The notes beneath the pieces are model-generated. The model was not told the DNA's origin. It did not search any database and saw only the letters and a program-made list of their open reading frames with translations. A stretch of 64,000 nt of DNA from Nitrososphaeraceae archaeon (GTDB lineage: Archaea; Thermoproteota; Nitrososphaeria; Nitrososphaerales; Nitrososphaeraceae). The translations under genes were made by a program, and so were the position numbers. The stretch covers positions 1-64,000 of the forward strand of contig WHTU01000001.1 in the NCBI GenBank assembly GCA_009377575.1, in the 5' to 3' direction. This document shows positions 2,998-13,700 of the stretch, in pieces. The stretch's first letter is position 1. Every line of letters begins with the position of its first letter.

Positions 2998-3181
2998 AAT
3001 GTTTACTAAAAATTAGCATGTTGAATCTTTTGTTATTAATGTCGTCTTATTCAGAAAAATTGACACACCTTGTTGAAGGATAATCGGATTGGCAGCTCAC
3101 CGTCAACGCCTTTATTATGTTCAGAGTATCAGTTTTATATGTATACGTGAATAGTGAAGAAAATTTAGGAATACAGAATAG

Positions 3182-3874
3182 ATGACAAAACCTATCCTAT
3201 GTCTTCAAAATATACCATGTGAGACCCTAGGTACCTTCGAGGGGTTATTTTTGAATGATGGATTTGATATTGAGAAAGTTAACGCGACGACACAGAGGGT
3301 TCCAATAGATCCAACCCCATATAGTGCAATAGTTATTTTAGGCGGTCCTATGTCAGTTTATGAAAACAGCGGGTTCATAAGGGACCAAATCAGTCTCGCT
3401 AGGATATCCAGTAAGAAGAAGACACCATTACTGGGAATATGCTTAGGCTCACAAATTATCGCGCGATCCTCTGGAGGAACTGTATTCAAAGGCCCAAAAA
3501 AGGAAATTGGTTGGCATGAAATTATGATTGAAAGCTCTGGAAATGAGGATCTATTTTCTGGGTTTCAAAATTCTAGACCGATGGTTTTTCAGTGGCATGG
3601 AGACACCTTCTCCCTCCCTAAAACGGCAAGAATTTTGGCTCGTTCCAAACTTTATCCAGAGGCTTTTGCTGTAGGTTCTCTAATTGGAATTCAATTCCAT
3701 TTGGAAGTAACCGATAAGATGATACAGTCTTGGTTAAGAACCTACAAGTCAGAGGTGGTTTCTGAGAAAATCGATGTACGAAAAATGGTGAAAGAATCTG
3801 CTGCCTATCTTAAAGAATTGGAACAGTATTGCAGTCTAGTGTATTCGAATTTCTGTGCCAAGTTTTCTCTGTAG
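3182..3874 (+). CDS. Class I glutamine amidotransferase domain protein
   Basis: A 230-residue stand-alone class I (triad) glutaminase domain. The nucleophile elbow GICLGSQ puts the catalytic Cys at 87, and QFHLEV supplies His173 and Glu175. VILGGPMSVY (about 51-60) is the oxyanion-side loop typical of GMP-synthase-like amidotransferases. The enzyme would release ammonia from glutamine, or hydrolyse gamma-glutamyl compounds as in the PuuD/GMP-synthase-like clan. No synthetase partner is adjacent. A TATA-like box lies about 45 bases upstream (gttttatatg, 3132-3140). The substrate cannot be read from sequence. Confidence 0.82.
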   Translation: MTKPILCLQNIPCETLGTFEGLFLNDGFDIEKVNATTQRVPIDPTPYSAIVILGGPMSVYENSGFIRDQISLARISSKKKTPLLGICLGSQIIARSSGGTVFKGPKKEIGWHEIMIESSGNEDLFSGFQNSRPMVFQWHGDTFSLPKTARILARSKLYPEAFAVGSLIGIQFHLEVTDKMIQSWLRTYKSEVVSEKIDVRKMVKESAAYLKELEQYCSLVYSNFCAKFSL

Positions 3875-3971
3875 CTTTAGTTTCAATGTCAGCCCAAGAA
3901 TTTGGTATTCGACATATCTGACCAATTGGCACGTTGTGTGTGTGCGTAAACAAAATTTACTGAGGTTGCAA

Positions 3972-5012
3972 TCAGCCCTTCTCGTGTAGGGCAGCGTAAA
4001 TAAACGGCAATAATGTAGTGGCTTCGCCGTGAATCGTGACACGAGATGCTTTTGCAGTTATCTTTCCCCATGATACAGCTTCTTCGACGAGGGCTCCACT
4101 TAGACTTCCGTCCCATTCTGGACTGGTAGTCAAATATACTGCATAATCCAATCCCCCTTTGAATTGATTCCACCAAAGGGTGTGATGTTTAGAAATGCCT
4201 CCCCCGATCATGAACGCACCACTTCGCTTGTCATCATAAACGATGTCTGAAATGGTGGTCTGATCTTTGAGGAGATCGAGACCAAAGTCTCTGTGTTCCT
4301 GATGGAACATCCAGAGTTGGCTACCCACAGCTCCGTCGACTATCCCAGGAACTATTACAGGTATGTTATTCTTATTGGCCCAATACAGGAACGATGAATC
4401 GTTCAACTTGCTACCTATGAAATCCATGATCTCAGAGGGTGCAATGAATTTCTTATTATGGTCATAATACAATTCGTCTAGACAGGCTCGTACCTTCTTC
4501 TCAATCACCGCTCCATAGTTTGCAAAGGGTATGAGCACATTGCCTAACCTATGTATACCCTCTTTCAAGAGGGAAGAGTCGTTTAGTCTAAAATCTCCAG
4601 CATAATAACTGGCAGAGGTGCGTGCAATATCGTGATCTAAAGCGCCACAGGTTGTTACAATACAATCAAAAGCATGTTCCTTTATCAACTCACGTATAAT
4701 TCCCCTGGTACCTGTTGAAATAATTGAACCTACAAAGGAGATGAACTTTACGCAGTTTCCGTCGCTGTTCATTGCTTTCAGGATTTCAATGCCGTTAGCG
4801 AGGTTAACTGCCTCAAAACCTCCCGAATTCATCATCCTTTCAACCAACTCGGCCATGTCTGATTTGCAGTACGAGTCGTAGTCGCGTATGGGTCTCGTTA
4901 ACAAATCATTCGAAGGACTCAATTTTCTGGGCTTCTTGCCTTTTGGGTTTTGCCGCGATCCAGTTCTTGTCTTGGGATGATTTATCTTCTTGATGCTGCC
5001 CACGCTTCTCAT
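3972..5012 (-). CDS. dys: Deoxyhypusine synthase
   Basis: Deoxyhypusine synthase transfers the aminobutyl group of spermidine to one lysine of aIF5A, the first step of hypusine formation. The 346-residue protein has the NAD-binding fold and SFVGSIISTG, TTCGALDHDIAR, IVPGIVDGAVGSQLW, GGGISKHHTLWWNQF (270-284) and EAVSWGKI, where Lys317 matches the lysine that carries the enzyme intermediate (human Lys329). The basic N-terminal about 40 residues are an extension. Length and motifs are normal for the archaeal enzyme. A related DHS-like gene lies 640 bases away on the other strand. This is the likely functional hypusine enzyme. Confidence 0.93.
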   Translation of the reverse strand: MRSVGSIKKINHPKTRTGSRQNPKGKKPRKLSPSNDLLTRPIRDYDSYCKSDMAELVERMMNSGGFEAVNLANGIEILKAMNSDGNCVKFISFVGSIISTGTRGIIRELIKEHAFDCIVTTCGALDHDIARTSASYYAGDFRLNDSSLLKEGIHRLGNVLIPFANYGAVIEKKVRACLDELYYDHNKKFIAPSEIMDFIGSKLNDSSFLYWANKNNIPVIVPGIVDGAVGSQLWMFHQEHRDFGLDLLKDQTTISDIVYDDKRSGAFMIGGGISKHHTLWWNQFKGGLDYAVYLTTSPEWDGSLSGALVEEAVSWGKITAKASRVTIHGEATTLLPFIYAALHEKG

Positions 5013-5196
5013 TACTTCAGACGTATAAAATACCTTTCATGGGATCAATTCTATTCCAACGAAAAACAACAAATACCATGCCATCAAGCCTGAGGCGCTC
5101 AGTGACTCGATTAAGATTCTTGAAGGGAATGTCAAATGAAATTTTTCTCATTTGATCAGATAAGTAGGCGATTTCAGAACTTACCTCCTAATCTCT

Positions 5197-5562
5197 TCAT
5201 ATTGGCCCTGCTGTGGAAGGTTCAGTAACATGTAGTTCATTAACAACCTTGACAACACCTTCTATTTTCCAAATTTCTTCCCCAATTCGGCGTTTGTGTT
5301 CATAAGTTTGTACCGATCCTGTGATAGATACCACCTGGTCAACAACGTTGATTACGACCTTGCTTGTGTCAATGTGAGATATGCTCTTTAACTTCGCTGC
5401 TACAAGTGATCGAAGCTCCTCGTCAGTCTTTCTTCCGGGAAGACTACTGTTGCTGAAAAAATATCCGGCATAATAGTTATCTTTGGCATGGGGATGCTCC
5501 TTGTCGTCAGTGTTGTTTGAGTCTAGCATACTCTCAACAATACTATTGATATTTTTAAGCAT
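5197..5562 (-). CDS. BON-domain protein
   Basis: A 121-residue soluble protein. The C-terminal about 70 residues form a BON domain (LRSLVAAKLKSIS ... VVINVVDQVVSITGSV ... RIGEEIWKIEGVVKVVNEL), a small alpha/beta fold that in bacteria binds phospholipids or attaches to membranes. There is no signal peptide, so it is probably cytoplasmic. It sits between two deoxyhypusine-synthase-type genes, but nothing ties it to them beyond position. The role is unknown. Confidence 0.72.
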   Translation of the reverse strand: MLKNINSIVESMLDSNNTDDKEHPHAKDNYYAGYFFSNSSLPGRKTDEELRSLVAAKLKSISHIDTSKVVINVVDQVVSITGSVQTYEHKRRIGEEIWKIEGVVKVVNELHVTEPSTAGPI

Positions 5563-5652
5563 TGCCGAACCAACGTCACCTCATACCGAAGTCCGGCTCG
5601 TTCATACCTTGGCATATACATTTTAAAGTGATTATCATGACTTCTTTAAAGA

Positions 5653-6747
5653 GTGAACAAATTTCACAATTTTTCTGGGCGCAAAATAGACCCTCCCTCC
5701 ATTTCAGGCAATATGGACGTTCGCGATTTAGTAGAATATTTTGGCGCAACTGGTTTCAATGCGCGGCGACTTTATGAGGCTTTACAGATCACTAAGCAGA
5801 TGATAAACGAAGGGGCTTGCGTTTGCTTAACATTAGCAGGTGCACTTGCTCCAATTGGGCTGGGAAGAGCAATTTCGGCCTTGATAGAGCGCGGATTCAT
5901 AGATTGGATTGTGTCTACCGGGGCCAATGTTTATCATGATCTTCACTTTGCTTACGACCTTCCCGTAAGACAAGGGTATTTCGATGTGGATGACAATATT
6001 CTCTACTCGAAACAGATCGTGCGTATCTATGATGTATTTATCAAGGAAATTGGGACATTACAGAAACAAGATGAGATAGTCAAGGCAGCTATAGAGACCG
6101 ACAGGCAGAGTTTGCTTGACAATTCCTCAACAGCCGACCTGTGCAATATTTTAGGCATGTCTGCGAAAAAAAACTCTGCATATCCTGAAAGATCCTTCTC
6201 GGTATGTGCATATGAAAATGACGTGCCGATTTACTTACCGGCTGTAGCTGATTCTTCGATTGGACTAAATATGCTCCCTCTTCTCCTTGAAAACAAACCA
6301 GTTAGCCCTAACGTGATTTTGGATGTCGCGGAATCAGCGGCAATTCTTTGGAAGAATAAGATTTCTGGAGGAATTGAATTAGGAGGAGGGGTTCCCAAAA
6401 ACTTTTTCCAACAGACCGGCCCCGCTTTGTTCCAGATTCTTAAGTTGAAGGAAGGAGGACAGGACTATCTCGTCCAATTCACAGATGCTCGTCCAGATAC
6501 TGGGGGTTTATCTGGCGCGACACTGCAAGAGGGTAAAAGTTGGGGAAAAATCAAGTCTGCTCATGATGGAAATGTGATAGTTTACGGAGATTCATCAGTT
6601 TATTTTCCCATCTTGGTAGCATTCATTATGTCTGAGTGTAAGCCTCGTCAGCGAAAGAGGATTTATAAGAAGAAAAATGCATGGGTGAAGGAAATGAAGC
6701 TAGCATATCTTCAAAGCAAAAAACATAAGCGAAGTAGGGCTCATTGA
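5653..6747 (+). CDS. Deoxyhypusine-synthase-like protein (DHS paralogue)
   Basis: A 364-residue member of the deoxyhypusine synthase family, divergent from the canonical copy at 3972-5012. It keeps GATGFNARRLYEAL (31-44), the NAD-binding STGANVYHDLHFAYDLP, GGIELGGGVPKNF and GLSGATLQEGKSWGK, with Lys299 at the catalytic-lysine position. In place of the canonical HHTLWWNQF segment it has NFFQQTGPALF. Such paralogues in bacteria and archaea include homospermidine synthases and enzymes of unknown substrate, so a polyamine role is likely but not proven. The start is GTG at 5653; an ATG at 5713 would remove the conserved N-terminal strand. The C-terminal tail (about 335-364) is strongly basic. Confidence 0.85.
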   Translation: MNKFHNFSGRKIDPPSISGNMDVRDLVEYFGATGFNARRLYEALQITKQMINEGACVCLTLAGALAPIGLGRAISALIERGFIDWIVSTGANVYHDLHFAYDLPVRQGYFDVDDNILYSKQIVRIYDVFIKEIGTLQKQDEIVKAAIETDRQSLLDNSSTADLCNILGMSAKKNSAYPERSFSVCAYENDVPIYLPAVADSSIGLNMLPLLLENKPVSPNVILDVAESAAILWKNKISGGIELGGGVPKNFFQQTGPALFQILKLKEGGQDYLVQFTDARPDTGGLSGATLQEGKSWGKIKSAHDGNVIVYGDSSVYFPILVAFIMSECKPRQRKRIYKKKNAWVKEMKLAYLQSKKHKRSRAH

Positions 6748-6814
6748 AGGTGAGGAACGATCTCTTGTCAAGATATGCCTTTGATTCAAGACTGATACTG
6801 TTGGAGGAAGTATT

Positions 6815-7282
6815 ATGAGCATGAGCAAGGAAGATCTAAAATTCGAGGTAAGAGAAATTGAATTAGGAGATTTAAAAAATGGATACTTCTCTACGCTTAA
6901 GAATTTGTCTGATTTGGGAAACGTCGAAGGGAATAGAGAGAAAGCAGAACAGATATTGAACAATATCAATGCAAATCCACTTCACAGAATATTTGTTGCG
7001 ATAGACAAACAGTCTTCTGAGATAATCGGAGCAACCACACTTCTTGTCGAGCAGAAATTTATTCATGGTGGGGGAAAGGCAGGTCATATTGAGGACGTTG
7101 TGACTCGCAAGGGATTCGAGGGCCTTGGCATAGGCTCTGCACTTATTAACCACGCATTACATTTTGCAAGGACGGTCGGTTGCTACAAGGTAGTATTGGA
7201 TTGTTCAGACAGCAACATCAGTTTTTATCAGAAGGCCGGTTTTAGGGTACATGAAACCTCCATGAGATACGACCTGCTTTAA
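6815..7282 (+). CDS. GNAT acetyltransferase, GNA1-like (glucosamine-6-phosphate N-acetyltransferase type)
   Basis: A 155-residue GNAT enzyme resembling eukaryotic GNA1: VREIELGDLKNGYFSTLKNL at the start, then TTLLVEQKFIHGGGKAGHIEDVV (73-96), the acetyl-CoA loop GFEGLGIGSAL (100-110) and GCYKVVLDCSDSNISFYQKA (122-141). GNA1 makes N-acetylglucosamine-6-phosphate for UDP-GlcNAc, which would fit the surface-glycan genes nearby. A clear Shine-Dalgarno (ttggaggaag, about 6801-6810) precedes the ATG. It follows the DHS-like gene by 67 bases on the same strand. The GNA1 assignment is by remembered motif similarity; substrate is inferred. Confidence 0.8.
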   Translation: MSMSKEDLKFEVREIELGDLKNGYFSTLKNLSDLGNVEGNREKAEQILNNINANPLHRIFVAIDKQSSEIIGATTLLVEQKFIHGGGKAGHIEDVVTRKGFEGLGIGSALINHALHFARTVGCYKVVLDCSDSNISFYQKAGFRVHETSMRYDLL

Positions 7283-7391
7283 ATACTAGGCCTTGAGATT
7301 TGATCGCGTCGCGATTTTAGGATCATCGACTTTAATAAACTCTAATCGCTCACATTGATGGTCGCGGGAGGTTTATAATAATACCCTGCAT

Positions 7392-7982
7392 TTATTGTCC
7401 ACTCAACTTATCTATCAAAAGTTCTAATTGCAAGATATCTCTACTGCCTATCATGTCGACAATTTCAATATTAGTCCTAAAGGATGAAATCACTTCTTTG
7501 GTCGATTTTAATTTGGGATTACTACCTCTTGCGCCTACTATATACCCGTCCTTTCTTGTTCCATGGTTGTAGAGCGAAATCAGGGCTTGTCCAGGTAGAT
7601 GTCCCTTGCCTTCTCTTCCACACAGAATAAGATATCTCAAGTGCGGGTAATTGTGAACAGTCTCAAGGACATTATCGATTCCTCGATTTTCCGAAAGAAG
7701 CCTACCGACAAGAAATAGCTTGCGCATAATATCATTACGGGAGACAATTTCCTTCAGAAGGCTCATGTCTGAGAGTGTGCAGATAGCAATTGTTTCGCCA
7801 TTTCCCATCGCATAAGATAACCGTATTGGAAGGACAAACTCGCATATTTTACCCGCAACCGTCTGTAAGGAATCCAGTGTTTTTTTCATCACCCAGTTGT
7901 CATTATTAACCAGCATTAATATTGTATAATCTTTTATGGAAATGCGATTCAAAGAAGGAAAGAATTTTACCGATTCAAGCAT
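7392..7982 (-). CDS. MtrA-like (DUF4346-type) cobamide-binding domain protein
   Basis: A 196-residue soluble protein whose residues about 60-175 resemble the cytoplasmic domain of MtrA, the corrinoid-carrying subunit of methyl-H4MPT:coenzyme M methyltransferase. Matching blocks are VGRLLSENRGIDNVLETV, HLRYLILCGREGKGHLPGQAL and IVGARGSNPKL. His128 in GHLPGQ aligns with the His of the MtrA GHITGQ motif, the cobalt ligand. The MtrA membrane anchor is absent and the first about 45 residues are unrelated. Thaumarchaea lack methanogenesis, so it may be a cobamide methyl carrier or sensor. It is divergent from a corrinoid adenosyltransferase, 71 bases away, which supports a cobamide link. Function is inferred. 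Confidence 0.75.
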   Translation of the reverse strand: MLESVKFFPSLNRISIKDYTILMLVNNDNWVMKKTLDSLQTVAGKICEFVLPIRLSYAMGNGETIAICTLSDMSLLKEIVSRNDIMRKLFLVGRLLSENRGIDNVLETVHNYPHLRYLILCGREGKGHLPGQALISLYNHGTRKDGYIVGARGSNPKLKSTKEVISSFRTNIEIVDMIGSRDILQLELLIDKLSGQ

Positions 7983-8053
7983 GGAATGAGCAAAATCGTG
8001 ACTATTAATATCAAATATATAGCAATGCCGTCGAGTACGGGTAACAAACTGCT

Positions 8054-8590
8054 ATGTCTAAAGGAGAAGGAATAGTTGTGATCTTTACTGGAAAGGGAAA
8101 AGGAAAGACAAGTGCAGCGCTAGGGATTGTTTTGAGATCAGTTGGACATGGTCAACGGGTAGCGATGATTCAATTCATCAAGGGAGAGTGGTATTACGGG
8201 GAGCTAACAAGCTCAAAAAGGCTCGAACCTGAATTTGACATGGTAGTATCAGGCAGGGGGTTTGTTGGTATCATCGATGACGATCTTCCCTTGGAAGAGC
8301 ATCAAGCGGCGGCAAAGCTAGCTATAGATATCGCAAAGAAGAAAGTCAGCTCTGGCGACTATGATGTAGTGATTTTAGATGAGATTAATTATGCATTGAA
8401 ACTAAAGCTCATCGTTATAGAAGACGCCCTTGATCTTTTGAAGTGCAAGGCGAGGCGGACCTCAGTAATCCTAACAGGAAACTATGCACCAACCAGATTA
8501 ATAGAAGTTGCGGACATGGTTACAGAAATGAAAGAAATAAAACATCCATTTAGAAATGGAGTAAAAGCAATGAAGGGTATTGACTATTAG
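8054..8590 (+). CDS. cobA: Cob(I)alamin / corrinoid adenosyltransferase, CobA/BtuR type
   Basis: A 178-residue P-loop enzyme that adenosylates the corrin cobalt using ATP to make coenzyme B12 or its precursor. Walker A is GKGKGKTS (13-20), the signature N-terminal loop of the CobA/BtuR family. Other matches are RVAMIQFIKGEWYYGE and YDVVILDEINYAL (Walker B-like), and LTGNYAP near the C-terminus. Length is usual for the family. Thaumarchaea are known B12 producers, so it may act in synthesis or salvage. The divergent neighbour is an MtrA-like cobamide-binding protein. Confidence 0.9.
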   Translation: MSKGEGIVVIFTGKGKGKTSAALGIVLRSVGHGQRVAMIQFIKGEWYYGELTSSKRLEPEFDMVVSGRGFVGIIDDDLPLEEHQAAAKLAIDIAKKKVSSGDYDVVILDEINYALKLKLIVIEDALDLLKCKARRTSVILTGNYAPTRLIEVADMVTEMKEIKHPFRNGVKAMKGIDY

Positions 8591-8650
8591 ATTCTGGACA
8601 CATCGGGTAGCCATATTTTCGGACCCCAAATTAGGCTCTACTAAGACCAG

Positions 8651-8711
8651 AAGCAGGGGTTGCTTACCCCTGCTTTCAAAAAAAAATCATCTTCGAGGCT
8701 CTATTACCTCG
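8651..8711. other. Two hairpins between cobA and aIF2-alpha
   Basis: A perfect 10-bp stem (8651-8660 with 8666-8675, loop tgctt) is followed by a run of A. A second, weaker stem CGAGG/CCTCG spans 8694-8711. The A-run is on the wrong side for a simple U-tract terminator on the plus strand. A transcript end, a processing site or a small RNA are possible. Only the symmetry is observed. Confidence 0.4.
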
Positions 8712-8826
8712 ACTATGGGCAAGACTGCAGGATGTATGAATAGATCTGAATTTATGCTCAATTCACGCTGTCAGTAGCCCTAATGGCAACGTTAAAGTAG
8801 CCGAAGTGTGGCGTTTACCGTTATAA

Positions 8827-9636
8827 ATGATGACTGCCGAGGTTAGACGGCTTCCTGAAGAAGGGGAAATCGTTCTAGTGACGATAAAGGAGGTAACGGG
8901 TCATGGAGCGTATATAACTCTTGACGAATACGACGAAACGATAGGCTTTCTTCATATTTCCGAGATAGCTACTGGATGGATCAGAAATATTGAAAGATAC
9001 ATTCGGCCTAAACAGAAGACCGTTTTAAAGGTTATACGAGTAAACAAGTCAAGGGCTGAAGTCGATTTGTCGCTTAAGCAGGTTAACGGCGACGAAAGGA
9101 AATCGAAGTTGATAGAGGTTAAGAAAAATGAAAAAGCTTCGGCTTTCATGGATATCGTAAGGAAAAAGGCAAATTTATCAGACTCTGAGATGACAAGCCT
9201 GGAAGATGAAATTCTAGAGAAATTTGATCTCGTCTATGACTTGTTTGAGACTGTTTCAAGGAAGGGGATCGAATCTATTCGTAGTCTTGGCCTCTCCGAA
9301 GAAATTATGAATTTAATAGAGATAGAGAGTAATAAGATCCAGATCCCTCACGTAGAAATAATGGGAATCCTCGAGATATCTCTAAACAAAGAGGACGGTA
9401 TAGAAAGGATAAAGAATCTACTTGGCTCTGTAGAAATTTCAAAAGCCAACACTGCGATCAGTATTACCTATATTTCAGCTCCTAAATACAGAATGGTGGT
9501 TAAAGCAGATAATTTCAAGAGTGCAGAAAAGATTATGAATAACGCACTAGAGAAAATCAAAAGTGCGATCAATCAGGAAAAGGGAAACTTCGAATTTAGG
9601 AGAGACCAATCCAGGAAGGTCCACTCGCAGATATGA
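8827..9636 (+). CDS. eif2a: Translation initiation factor aIF2, alpha subunit
   Basis: A 269-residue aIF2-alpha. An N-terminal S1/OB fold (about 12-85: GEIVLVTIKEVTGHGAYITL, IGFLHISEIATGWIRNI, RAEVDLSLK) is followed by a helical domain and a C-terminal alpha/beta domain (about 175-260) that contacts aIF2-gamma. The heterotrimer delivers initiator Met-tRNA to the small ribosomal subunit. Two adjacent ATGs (8827, 8830) could start it. Its stop overlaps the nop10 start (ATGA), giving a translationally coupled pair found in many archaea. The ribosomal protein genes often upstream (L44e, S27e) are not adjacent here. Confidence 0.94.
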   Translation: MMTAEVRRLPEEGEIVLVTIKEVTGHGAYITLDEYDETIGFLHISEIATGWIRNIERYIRPKQKTVLKVIRVNKSRAEVDLSLKQVNGDERKSKLIEVKKNEKASAFMDIVRKKANLSDSEMTSLEDEILEKFDLVYDLFETVSRKGIESIRSLGLSEEIMNLIEIESNKIQIPHVEIMGILEISLNKEDGIERIKNLLGSVEISKANTAISITYISAPKYRMVVKADNFKSAEKIMNNALEKIKSAINQEKGNFEFRRDQSRKVHSQI

Positions 9637-9797
9637 AAAAACATCTCATGAGGCTGTGCAGAAGCTGTGCTAGGTACACCTTGAAACTAGATTGTCCTGC
9701 ATGTGGGTCTATAACTATCAATCCACATCCGCCTCGATATTCTCCAGATGATAAATACATACGGTACAGGGTCCCTGAAAGGTATTCAACTAATTAG
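9633..9797 (+). CDS. nop10: H/ACA RNP protein Nop10
   Basis: A 54-residue protein beginning at the ATG that overlaps the aIF2-alpha stop by four bases. It has the Nop10 zinc ribbon, LCRSCARYTL and CPACGS (Cys9, Cys12, Cys21, Cys24), then the linear NPHPPRYSPDDKY motif and a basic end. Nop10 binds Cbf5 in the archaeal H/ACA particle that makes pseudouridine in rRNA. Length (50-60 residues) and the position directly after aIF2-alpha match the archaeal family. It is short enough for gene callers to miss. Confidence 0.95.
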   Translation: MKKHLMRLCRSCARYTLKLDCPACGSITINPHPPRYSPDDKYIRYRVPERYSTN

Positions 9798-9832
9798 GAC
9801 TGGCTTACTACCACCACCTAACTACATGTACG

Positions 9833-9874
9833 TCAAAGAATGGGAAATCGTAATCAAAGAATGGGAAATCGTAA
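9833..9874. repeat. 21-bp tandem repeat, two copies
   Basis: The unit tcaaagaatgggaaatcgta plus a final a occurs twice head to tail (9833-9853, 9854-9874) and is followed by a partial third start. It lies in the spacer after nop10 and before the convergent secreted-protein gene. No function is apparent. Confidence 0.85.
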
Positions 9875-10003
9875 TCAAAAAAGTGGAATAGCCGACTGGC
9901 GTGCTTATGACCACCTGAGAACGATACAAAAGCACTGACGTTATTTGTTATCTGATACTCCTGATGTCACCTTATATTGGGTTAGCCTAATAACATCTCG
10001 CAC

Positions 10004-10510
10004 TCATGAGTAGTCTCGGGGACTGGTCGATTGAGGACTTGTCATATTTATCACGTTATCTGCTGCAAACCCCGTTGCATTTGTATTTACGGTCTGTTCA
10101 ATTACGGCTTTCATAGCAGTGTCATTTGTCGTATCTCCTGTCATGTTATCTGCTCCAGTCAAGCCAGTGGCGTTGGACAGATTACCTGACATATTACTAG
10201 TAGTTGTTTGAATCAGCTGACGAGCTGCAAAATCAGTCGCGTTAGTGTTTTCTGCTTCCCTAATTACCGCTTCCATTAGAGACTGAGGTGAACCGAAAGA
10301 CTCTACCAGAGACTCTCCTGTTTGATTAGTCATACTCAAGTTGGATAATGGAGAAACATTTGTAGAATTTGACGGGGAAGCTACCGGAAACTGCTGTGCA
10401 TTAGCATTTGATACGTTTAGACCTTGCATGAGCGGCAAGCTCGAACCTATAGCTAAAATAGCAAAACCCATAAATGTCATCATGATCGACCTGTTCGCAA
10501 ATTTGTTCAT
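10004..10510 (-). CDS. Secreted, sequon-rich repeat protein
   Basis: A 168-residue protein with a signal peptide (basic MNKFANR start, hydrophobic core to about residue 30, probable cleavage near NANAQ/Q). The mature part is rich in Asn, Ser and Thr with twelve N-x-S/T sequons, suggesting dense N-glycosylation outside the cell. Two diverged repeats are visible: MEAVIREAENTNATDFAA and MKAVIEQTVNTNATGFAA. No enzymatic motif is seen. It is probably a cell-surface or matrix protein. It neighbours a secreted beta-helix protein on the same strand. Confidence 0.75.
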   Translation of the reverse strand: MNKFANRSIMMTFMGFAILAIGSSLPLMQGLNVSNANAQQFPVASPSNSTNVSPLSNLSMTNQTGESLVESFGSPQSLMEAVIREAENTNATDFAARQLIQTTTSNMSGNLSNATGLTGADNMTGDTTNDTAMKAVIEQTVNTNATGFAADNVINMTSPQSTSPRDYS

Positions 10511-10671
10511 TGATGAACAACATTTGTCATTGGATTTATTTATTTCTACCTTCTATTCTATGGGAAAGTACAGTTAGAATAATATGCTCTAACCCCCCTG
10601 AATAGTCAAAATATCATAAAAAAAAGTTATGGTGAGATCGATCACCTTTTCGGTCAGCTGGCAGATTTTGC

Positions 10672-11448
10672 TTATCTTCCTATACAGATCCCGCTTGGAT
10701 TGCTTACTTGGCAGTTGTTGTCCGTAAACTGGTTGTTGTTGATGTTAGGTGGTAGACCATTGGCATTGTTTACATCAAGGACATTTTGTAGAACGTTATT
10801 TGCTACGATGCTGTTTCCTGAGCTCTGTGCATCAAAGAATGCGCCGTTTTGGCTCCCATCAATGTTGTTCATCGAGACCTCAGATTGTTGGGTATTCACA
10901 AAAGTAATTCCTGCAAGCAAATTTCCGCTCATTAGGTTGGAAGTCAATGTAGCTCCTGAACTAGAATGTGTAGCCACACCAAGACTGTTTTGTTTGACGA
11001 TGTTCTGTTGTATCTCAGTATTCTCAGAACCTGTCATAAATACTCCAATTTGATTACTGTCTAGTATTAGTGATGACATCTTCATTCCGTTCGCACCCGT
11101 AACGAGTACACCAGCTTGGAAGTTACTTATGGAACCTGGCCCATTAATGACGATATTATCATTATTGGGAACCATTATTCCTACTTTTGAGCTATCAGGC
11201 CCTGGCCCAGTGATTGAGTATCCGTTCATGTTTATCACTGTATTATCACCACCAATAATGAGACCGTCTCCACTGCAGTCAAGATTTGCTGTAAGGTTTA
11301 CCAATCCGCTGACAACTTGCCCGCATGCTGCGTTAGTTGCTACCGGTTGCACTTGTGCCATTATTGACAATGAGGGCATTGTTACGCCTCCAATCGCCAT
11401 TAGTGACAGAATTGTTGCTACCATGTATGACACAATAGTTGGTTTCAT
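10672..11448 (-). CDS. Secreted right-handed beta-helix protein (paralogue 1)
   Basis: A 258-residue protein with an N-terminal signal peptide (about 1-31) and repeated short-strand turns (INMNGYSITGPG, NIVINGPGSISNF, GVLVTGANGMKMSSL, IGVFMTGSENTEI), the pattern of pectate-lyase-like parallel beta-helices. Four cysteines lie at the ends of the repeat block (AACGQ, LDCSG, NNCQV, GICIG). No acidic pectate-lyase catalytic cluster is evident, so it may be structural or carbohydrate-binding. A clear paralogue with the same four cysteines is encoded at 31318-32142. Confidence 0.8.
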   Translation of the reverse strand: MKPTIVSYMVATILSLMAIGGVTMPSLSIMAQVQPVATNAACGQVVSGLVNLTANLDCSGDGLIIGGDNTVINMNGYSITGPGPDSSKVGIMVPNNDNIVINGPGSISNFQAGVLVTGANGMKMSSLILDSNQIGVFMTGSENTEIQQNIVKQNSLGVATHSSSGATLTSNLMSGNLLAGITFVNTQQSEVSMNNIDGSQNGAFFDAQSSGNSIVANNVLQNVLDVNNANGLPPNINNNQFTDNNCQVSNPSGICIGR

Positions 11449-11743
11449 TCAAAAAACGCTAGCAGATATACTATATATGCGAAACTCCGATATGTACTCA
11501 ATCTCTGCTTCTTGTCTATCGAATATAAGTATCTGTTTATGTTATTGTTCTTATGTTGCAAGCACAAAAAGATAACAAGGATGTGAAACCACTCCTAGCT
11601 CAATCATATCGTCGCAATTTATCCTAGCAGTAACTAATATGCCGATCCGTTGAACCTCACAGTATTTCACTATTATCTTCTTCTATCGAGATAGCAAATT
11701 CATGGGAATAGGTTTTTAGATGCAACAAAGGAAGATCAATTCT

Positions 11744-12784
11744 ATGCGTATTGCGATCGTTGGTGCTGGTGTTGCAGGAAGCTACCTAGCATGTATGATA
11801 TCAAAGATGGGGCACGAAATTGAAGTTTATGAAACAAATGGAGAGGGAGCACATTGGCCAATATGCGCATGGGGAGGATCGAAGAATATGCTTGCAAAAT
11901 TCTCACAGCAAGCAGGCCTTGAATTCAACGAGTATATCAATCATACTGGACGGACACTAAGAATTGATCTTCCTGGGAATAAGGTGGAATACTTGGAGCT
12001 AAAGGGATTGGTCACCTATAACAAACGCAAATGGGAATCAGATTTACTTCGAGGAGTCAGGGTTTCCTATGGAAGGAAATGCAATTTGGAAAGCCCATTA
12101 TTGTCTGAATATGATTTAGTAATTGACTGCACGGGGTTCCATCGATCGCTGCTGCCAAAATCTGAGGAGGACTTTATAATACCTGCTTACGAATACCTAG
12201 TTGAAAATCTTAAAGACATGGAAGATTTTTACGTGATTGGATACAAAGGCGCTCGAGGCTATTTTTGGTGCTTTCCCTTAAGCAAAGGAGAGGCATTTGT
12301 CGGTGCGGGAGATTTGGACAGGAAATACTATGGAATTTCAGAGTTTTTGGCTAGACACCCAGAATGCAACATTAGGAAAAAGATAGGAAGGCCGATACGC
12401 CTTGCTCCACCGCGAAGAATGCAACCATTCTATTGGAACAATGTCGTAGGTGTTGGAGAGTCTATCGGCTGTGTATTTCCAATGCTTGGAGAGGGAATTA
12501 TCCCATCTTTAATATGCAGTGATATTTTCTTGCATGAGCTTACCAGAAGCAATAATTTCGGAAAGGGGTTTGACTTCAAGCATTACTCTAGCAAAGTCCT
12601 CAAACGGTTCAGATATTATGACGACGTTTACCGAATAATACGACTTAAAATGGCGTCTTCATTGAATATGATAAAGCACTTTAAACTGATGATGAATATG
12701 TACCAAAATATGAAAAGGGAAGAGGATCGATTTGGGTTTGAGGTCAGTCTGGCCAAAATGAACAGATTTGTAAATGCACTCTAG
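11744..12784 (+). CDS. FAD-dependent oxidoreductase, geranylgeranyl-reductase-like
   Basis: A 346-residue flavoprotein starting MRIAIVGAGVAGSYLA, the Rossmann GxGxxG dinucleotide motif. DLVIDCTGF and VVGVGESIGCVFPMLGEGI are the later FAD-contact motifs of the p-hydroxybenzoate hydroxylase/geranylgeranyl reductase class. Archaeal members saturate the isoprenoid chains of ether lipids or of dolichol; others hydroxylate. An in-frame ATG 24 bases upstream (11720) is possible, but the Rossmann strand normally begins the protein. It stands beside the surface-glycan block, so a lipid-carrier substrate would fit, by inference. Confidence 0.8.
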   Translation: MRIAIVGAGVAGSYLACMISKMGHEIEVYETNGEGAHWPICAWGGSKNMLAKFSQQAGLEFNEYINHTGRTLRIDLPGNKVEYLELKGLVTYNKRKWESDLLRGVRVSYGRKCNLESPLLSEYDLVIDCTGFHRSLLPKSEEDFIIPAYEYLVENLKDMEDFYVIGYKGARGYFWCFPLSKGEAFVGAGDLDRKYYGISEFLARHPECNIRKKIGRPIRLAPPRRMQPFYWNNVVGVGESIGCVFPMLGEGIIPSLICSDIFLHELTRSNNFGKGFDFKHYSSKVLKRFRYYDDVYRIIRLKMASSLNMIKHFKLMMNMYQNMKREEDRFGFEVSLAKMNRFVNAL

Positions 12785-12839
12785 TTCAAGCCGACGAATT
12801 GCTGTGAATCGCTATCAATGTTGCATCATTGCATTCTTA

Positions 12840-13700
12840 TTAGTGAATTATTCGATGCCGCTTGCCTGAAATAGCAGAGAGCATTCTCCTTTTTTGAATT
12901 TCCCTAACGAATCTTCGAAGCTGGTCGTCGTATAACCGATCGTATCCGACCATTTTTGGTTTGTACGAGAGGTAGTAATATAACATATTGAACGCTCCAA
13001 TTCTCCCTGTTACCTCTCCAGTTGCTAGATATTTCGCAAATCTGCCCCATACAAAGATCGGGTGATATCCTAGTGTCTTCATGCTCGCACCAAATTCATA
13101 GAACTTGTGATGCTTTCCCAGAGGTCTAGAGTGTTGAAACCTAGCTTCAGTCAGTGTCGCGTAGCTGTATCCCAGCCGTTCTGACTCATAGAGAATTGCT
13201 GACTCGTAACCCATTAATTCAGGGTATACTCCTCCCCATTGAGTCTGTTCAAAAAAAGAGTTACGCACAAATCTCCCTGCACCATGCGGCTTCTCAGGCA
13301 CGTACTTTGTGTAATTGCCTGATGCTACAGCAATACTTGAGTTAGCATCCATAAAATCGACCAAATCGCGAGCATACTCAGGTGGATAAGTTGTATCATC
13401 CGTTGCTATCATGTGATAGGTTGCATGTGCAAGCTTCTTGTTCCTCGAGTATGCGATGGCTTCGTTCCAGTTCTTGACTACTCTGCCAATATCATAACCC
13501 AAATCATTGTTTGTTATGACATGAAGAGATTGCCAGTTTTGTCTTGTCTGTGTCAAGATCTTAGAAGTTTTGTCCGTCGACCCATCATCCACTACAATCA
13601 CATATTGTGGAGCTAAAATCTGTTTTTTTAATGACATTAGGGCAGCGTGAATATCGTCCTCGGAGTTCCTACATGTAACGATCGCGAAATACGTACCCAT
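12840..13700 (-). CDS. Glycosyltransferase family 2 (GT-A fold)
   Basis: A 286-residue GT-A glycosyltransferase with VIVVDDGSTDKTSKIL (about 34-49) and ATDDTTYPP, the DxD-like metal/nucleotide-sugar site. Family 2 enzymes build glycans on lipid carriers at the cytoplasmic side of the membrane. There is no transmembrane segment at either end. It is the most downstream gene of a minus-strand glycan block, 136 bases after the next glycosyltransferase. Sugar specificity is unknown. Confidence 0.87.
   Translation of the reverse strand: MGTYFAIVTCRNSEDDIHAALMSLKKQILAPQYVIVVDDGSTDKTSKILTQTRQNWQSLHVITNNDLGYDIGRVVKNWNEAIAYSRNKKLAHATYHMIATDDTTYPPEYARDLVDFMDANSSIAVASGNYTKYVPEKPHGAGRFVRNSFFEQTQWGGVYPELMGYESAILYESERLGYSYATLTEARFQHSRPLGKHHKFYEFGASMKTLGYHPIFVWGRFAKYLATGEVTGRIGAFNMLYYYLSYKPKMVGYDRLYDDQLRRFVREIQKRRMLSAISGKRHRIIH

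Follow-up and report, generated by a model that had tools for sequence, protein, structure and literature searches.

A soluble MtrA-like protein of ammonia-oxidizing archaea as a candidate cobamide carrier outside the Mtr complex

The window analysed here, a stretch of 64,000 nt from a Nitrososphaeraceae archaeon, carries on its minus strand a gene that encodes a real member of the MtrA family (PF04208). We tentatively favour, with somewhat less than even confidence, the view that its product is a cytosolic cobamide carrier derived from MtrA, acting in B12 supply or redox chemistry together with an oxidoreductase and not as a Mtr methyltransferase. In natural waters, ammonia-oxidizing archaea are considered major producers of B12 (PMC4303638). 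The handling of B12 after its synthesis in these archaea is little known, and the conserved MtrA-like protein is a concrete candidate for this step. A widespread MtrA descendant without partners also shows the fate of a component of methanogenesis in a lineage without methanogenesis. In the literature searched, which excluded most subscription papers, we found no description of the ammonia-oxidizer clade of the protein, of its operon with the oxidoreductase gene or of its cob neighbourhood.

The minus-strand frame given in the ORF list spans 7392-7982 (196 aa) and was confirmed. It passed the Pfam model of MtrA with 74.1 bits (cut-off 25, E 1.4e-20), and phmmer matched M. jannaschii MtrA in the PDB (5l8x) at E 5e-17, aligning GHLPGQ of the MtrA-like protein with GHITGQ of MtrA. 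The His in GHITGQ is the cobalt ligand (PMC4915002). The cut-off of the NCBIfam equivalog TIGR01111 was missed (68.9 vs 249 bits). The orthologues start at approximately residue 32 of the ORF, the first 31 residues having no counterpart in them, and three congeners (L080-L082) contain an in-frame TGA two codons 5' of the codon equivalent to M32. Therefore, the gene is taken as 7392..7889 (minus strand, 165 aa, ATG at 7887-7889), and the 31 codons at 7890..7982 (minus strand) are probably untranslated. The initial annotation had matched GHLPGQ to the cobalt-ligand motif of MtrA, and the aligned motif bears this out; its residue number, His128, came from the mis-called start, and the true ligand residue is His97 (codon 7599..7601, minus strand). 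The gene is under purifying selection against congeners (dN 0.10 / dS 0.39; dN 0.11 / dS 0.73), with dN/dS of approximately 0.15-0.26. The C-terminal membrane segment is missing: the profile match stops near position 147 of 173, and the protein has 165 aa compared with approximately 240 in MtrA. As first annotated, it is predicted to be soluble, without a membrane anchor.

The AlphaFold2 model of the protein, computed with 34 orthologues as input, had a pLDDT of 86.6, which was low only at residues 1-23. The best structural match was MtrA (5l8x_A, TMq 0.76, rmsd 1.8 Å, E 6e-13), MtrA with cobalamin (5laa) gave a TMq of 0.72, and MtrA chains were the sole PDB structure matches of the model at E < 0.001. 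The structure comparison suggested along with the initial annotation thus agreed with the assignment to MtrA.

The residues of the cobamide pocket were numbered by mapping onto M. fervidus MtrA and were followed in two sets of orthologues, 34 collected with the Pfam profile and 81 with a DNA search pattern. The initial annotation had made its claim depend on the conservation of the ligand His in orthologues, and the His84 position was His in 34/34 and 81/81. In MtrA, Glu54 holds this His by a His-Glu linkage (PMC4915002). The corresponding residue, Glu67 (codon 7689..7691, minus strand), was invariant in the unbiased Pfam-profile set (34/34); it was also Glu in 81/81 of the other set, a biased count because Glu54 and its neighbours belonged to the DNA pattern that gathered those loci. 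Among the 81 orthologues, the Thr53 position was always Ser, which preserves the hydroxyl, the Gly57 position was always Gly, the Val61 position was aliphatic or Met, and Asn64, a tail contact of MtrA, was not preserved. The Tyr18 position was aromatic in most orthologues. From these residues, we infer that the protein binds a cobamide. Cobalamin would be bound base-off, with His97 as the lower ligand and Glu67 holding His97.

The meander motif GAIPF-Y/F-XEN, which is thought to relay the movement of the His within Mtr (PMC4915002), is degenerate in the 81 orthologues: Ile111 is variable, E115 is gapped, and N116 is mostly replaced. This decay fits a protein freed from energy coupling. An extra N-terminal Cys without an equivalent in MtrA is invariant in the 34 orthologues; it lies in the segment before residue 24, where the AlphaFold2 model is unreliable. 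In 58/80 loci of the context survey described below, the MtrA-like gene has a dUTPase_2 gene next to it, convergent with it or overlapping it. The Cys and the dUTPase neighbour would fit a protein that kept the fold and took a non-cobamide cofactor, for example in nucleotide or pterin metabolism. We consider this very unlikely, because the cobalt-ligand His, the Glu that holds it and the contacts by Ser and Gly do not vary and because convergent neighbours do not share a promoter.

The Mtr partner subunits searched were MtrH and MtrE. MtrH was found in 0/120 Nitrososphaeria genomes, including that of the host, whereas methanogen controls were positive, and MtrE was not found in the host genome. 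This widens the first observation that no other Mtr subunit lies nearby. The protein is not in a Mtr complex, and it is probably not a subunit of a pterin-dependent methyltransferase. The host genome encodes a complete MetH in two adjacent genes (S-methyl_trans, Pterin_bind, two B12-binding and activation domains), and no match to MetE or core MetE (PF01717) was found in it. This MetH brings its own B12, pterin and activation domains, so methionine synthesis leaves no gap for the MtrA-like protein. The idea that the protein supplies methyl groups to a folate-independent methionine synthase (core MetE) was therefore rejected for the host.

The protein may still be a methyl carrier: its Co(I) would be methylated by some methyltransferase, and the methyl group would go on to a thiol or another acceptor, in the way that MtrA methylates coenzyme M. 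The preserved core of the MtrA pocket is consistent with this, MtrA-like proteins of other non-methanogens have been proposed as methyl carriers (PMC9635834, PMC11291895), MesA is predicted to accept methyl groups from MtrA (PMC7857596), and the sister clade carries a PterinBD-DUF4346 fusion. However, MtrH is absent in the class sample, MetE and core MetE were not found in the host, its complete MetH has its own cobalamin domain, and among the surveyed loci no methyltransferase gene recurs immediately beside the MtrA-like gene. We regard a methyl carrier as unlikely. It keeps some weight through the intact pocket core and through relatives presumed to carry methyl groups, but a donor or acceptor enzyme is not in sight.

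The divergent neighbour of the MtrA-like gene in the window is a gene for a CobA/BtuR-type ATP:corrinoid adenosyltransferase (8054..8590, plus strand, 178 aa), which passed PF02572 (197.8 bits, cut-off 25.7) and TIGR00708 (183.6 bits, cut-off 167.75). It is an ordinary member of the CobA/BtuR family in which no unusual feature was seen. The divergent pair reported at first, a gene for an MtrA-type cobamide-binding domain and a CobA-type gene, was thus recovered by Pfam, PDB and TIGR00708 matches. A PduO-type adenosyltransferase is encoded in the host genome besides CobA. After start correction, the intergenic gap between the two genes is 164 bp. An alignment of this region from four congeners shows an imperfect palindrome, CCGTCGAGTACGGG (8028..8041, plus strand), right before cobA, between a TATA-like block (approximately 8013-8021) and the cobA start. 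It is largely kept in the four congeners and missing in other genera, and it is possibly an operator or a leader hairpin. No known RNA elements, such as a cobalamin riboswitch, were found in 3000-13000. The gene 3' of cobA encodes aIF2 alpha (8827..9636, plus strand, PF07541/PF00575), which adjoins cobA also in Nitrosocosmicus and Nitrososphaera. Elsewhere in the window, two deoxyhypusine-synthase paralogues lie close by each other (3972-5012, minus strand, and 5653-6747, plus strand); the latter scored 430 bits against the NCBIfam model 'homospermidine biosynthesis protein' (cut-off 450).

The gene context was surveyed in 80 named loci (L080-L159) with up to 6 kb per flank, many of them shortened by contig ends. 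The cobA gene was divergently upstream, within 1.7 kb, in 16/80 loci, apparently all from Nitrososphaeraceae; one of the 16 (L151) is labelled Nitrosopumilus and shows the Nitrosocosmicus arrangement. Several of these loci continue with metK and cbiD within 2.2-5.6 kb, and a complete Nitrosocosmicus-type genome has cbiG, cbiX, cbiC and cbiA as well in the cobA neighbourhood. The distance from cobA to the MtrA-like gene was 10-17 kb in four checked genomes of Nitrososphaera-type genera and from 45 to several hundred kb in Nitrosopumilaceae. In Nitrosopumilales, cbiH lies 2.7-4.5 kb from the MtrA-like gene, and Nitrosocaldaceae loci had no cob gene within 6 kb. Any cob or cbi gene was present in 47/80 loci, which amounts to about two independent arrangements. 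Conservation of the gene pair in thaumarchaea, which the initial annotation had put forward for checking, therefore holds for these 16 loci, within a wider cob/cbi/metK neighbourhood, and is not general. A functional pair of cobA and the MtrA-like gene as a general rule was rejected: the two are transcribed divergently, and they occur paired only within part of one family.

The most regular operon-like partner, tighter than cobA, is a gene for a PNPOx-fold flavin/F420 oxidoreductase. It lies directly upstream on the same strand in 24/80 loci, with spacing from an overlap to 38 bp, and loci of Nitrosocaldaceae and Nitrososphaeraceae are among these 24. The best NCBIfam matches of the gene were PPOX-class F420-dependent oxidoreductases, each below its cut-off. 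It is not adjacent in Nitrosopumilaceae, where a DegT aminotransferase gene is upstream instead; in Nitrosopumilales, the DegT gene overlaps the MtrA-like gene. The PNPOx-fold gene is also missing from the gap between the MtrA-like gene and cobA in the genus of the window, and this gap is approximately 165 bp compared with 570-750 bp where the oxidoreductase gene intervenes. The displaced orthologue of the host is on another contig (C11, 48% identity; L188:6416-6844, minus strand), and it adjoins a gene for a CDC48-type AAA ATPase.

Our hypothesis is that the MtrA-like protein serves cobamide supply and redox chemistry in partnership with the oxidoreductase and CobA. As a carrier, it would keep, move or present the corrinoid. 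Its cobalt would be reduced by the PNPOx-fold flavin/F420 oxidoreductase, whose gene is usually the operon partner of the MtrA-like gene and is displaced in the host, and the corrinoid would be used or adenosylated by client corrinoid enzymes, CobA among them. A bolder form of this proposal, which we hold to be doubtful, is that a relic of the methanogenic Mtr was made into a dedicated B12 redox carrier that, with the oxidoreductase, keeps cobamides reduced for adenosylation or insertion. Such a carrier may be needed because cells of ammonia-oxidizing archaea make NO and N2O, and, if real, it would be a hitherto undescribed kind of B12 chaperone. A cobamide reservoir or sensor would instead bind surplus B12 without enzymatic hand-on, or signal the cobamide state. 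This is in line with a small stand-alone predicted binding domain, with B12-synthesis genes nearby in Nitrososphaeraceae and with the dispensability of the gene in some lineages. We find it improbable, as the protein has no DNA-binding or signalling domain and the recurrent oxidoreductase partner indicates redox chemistry.

The host genome (3.89 Mb, 99% complete) contains archaeal AmoA, and the MAGs TH526 and TH5896 of the Nitrososphaerales are its nearest named relatives. The host is an ammonia-oxidizing archaeon and not a methanogen, as the initial annotation had assumed of it. PF04208 was found in 231/400 genomes of the class. In a sample of 300 genomes, in which the short MtrA-like form and AmoA were both scored, the short form was present in 160/201 AmoA-positive genomes. 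Another 19 genomes had the short form without an AmoA match, all in genera having AmoA. The remaining 41/201 AmoA-positive genomes were without the MtrA-like gene, for example those of the small-genome genera g21 and g30. The short form is thus confined to ammonia-oxidizing genera and was lost in several. Some small genomes without the gene retain CobA (e.g. G046), which indicates that the MtrA-like gene is not required for B12 synthesis. The confinement to ammonia oxidizers might mean that the protein shields or repairs B12 exposed to the NO and N2O of ammonia oxidation: its His-ligated corrinoid would scavenge nitrogen oxides or stand in for cofactor that has been poisoned, and the oxidoreductase would act as the reductant. 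The basis of this idea is the distribution together with general cobalamin chemistry, and the gene is missing from several AmoA-positive lineages; we judge it extremely unlikely.

In a tree of 73 sequences, every short form fell into a single clade (support 100/99), whose sister comprised MtrA domains fused to PterinBD-DUF4346 (support 99/96). Canonical MtrA, and likewise a 'long' form belonging to other lineages, stood apart from the short-form clade, in a tree whose outgroup root is weak. At L070, L071, L072 and L196, other lineages have longer MtrA-like proteins of 232-259 aa. The genes at L070-L072 adjoin an ArsP_1 permease gene and that at L196 adjoins, judged by eye, an ArsR-like regulator gene, which hints at a metalloid link for these long proteins.

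That non-methanogenic archaea have MtrA homologues, most of them retaining His84, was already noted (PMC4915002), and MtrA and MtrH of non-methanogens have been discussed, their role being unclear (PMC9635834, PMC11291895). The 'MtrA' mentioned twice in the Nitrososphaera evergladensis paper is an unrelated response regulator. Compared with MtrA of the Na+-pumping methyl-H4MPT:CoM methyltransferase (PF04208; 5L8X, 5LAA), the ammonia-oxidizer clade has the same fold and shares the cobalt-ligand His, the His-Glu linkage, the Thr/Ser contact and the aromatic residue at Tyr18. It differs from MtrA of the Mtr complex, at approximately 30% identity, in that it lacks the membrane segment, the GAIPF..EN meander and Asn64, in that no Mtr partners were found, and in an additional N-terminal segment with the invariant Cys. 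The cytoplasmic MtrA homologues of methanogens, such as that of M. fervidus (PMC4915002), are likewise stand-alone soluble domains of 160-180 aa; they are 60-97% identical to membrane MtrA, whereas the ammonia-oxidizer clade is remote and its hosts are without Mtr. The MtrA-like and MtrH-like proteins and MtrAH fusions of Asgard archaea and Bathyarchaeia (PMC9635834, PMC11291895) also place the MtrA domain outside methanogenesis, but the ammonia-oxidizer clade is separate from this type, and a MtrH partner was not found in the 120 genomes or the loci. Two of the sister-clade fusions (L073:6352-7470 and L171:55-1170, both minus strand) carry an N-terminal CxxCxC ... CxxCxxC, Fe-S-like, before the MtrA domain and PterinBD-DUF4346, and they resemble a corrinoid iron-sulfur protein of independent design. 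This Cys-rich N-terminus sets them apart from the ammonia-oxidizer clade, and beside the MtrA-PterinBD-DUF4346 fusions (L073, L171, L054) the ammonia-oxidizer form is the bare domain.
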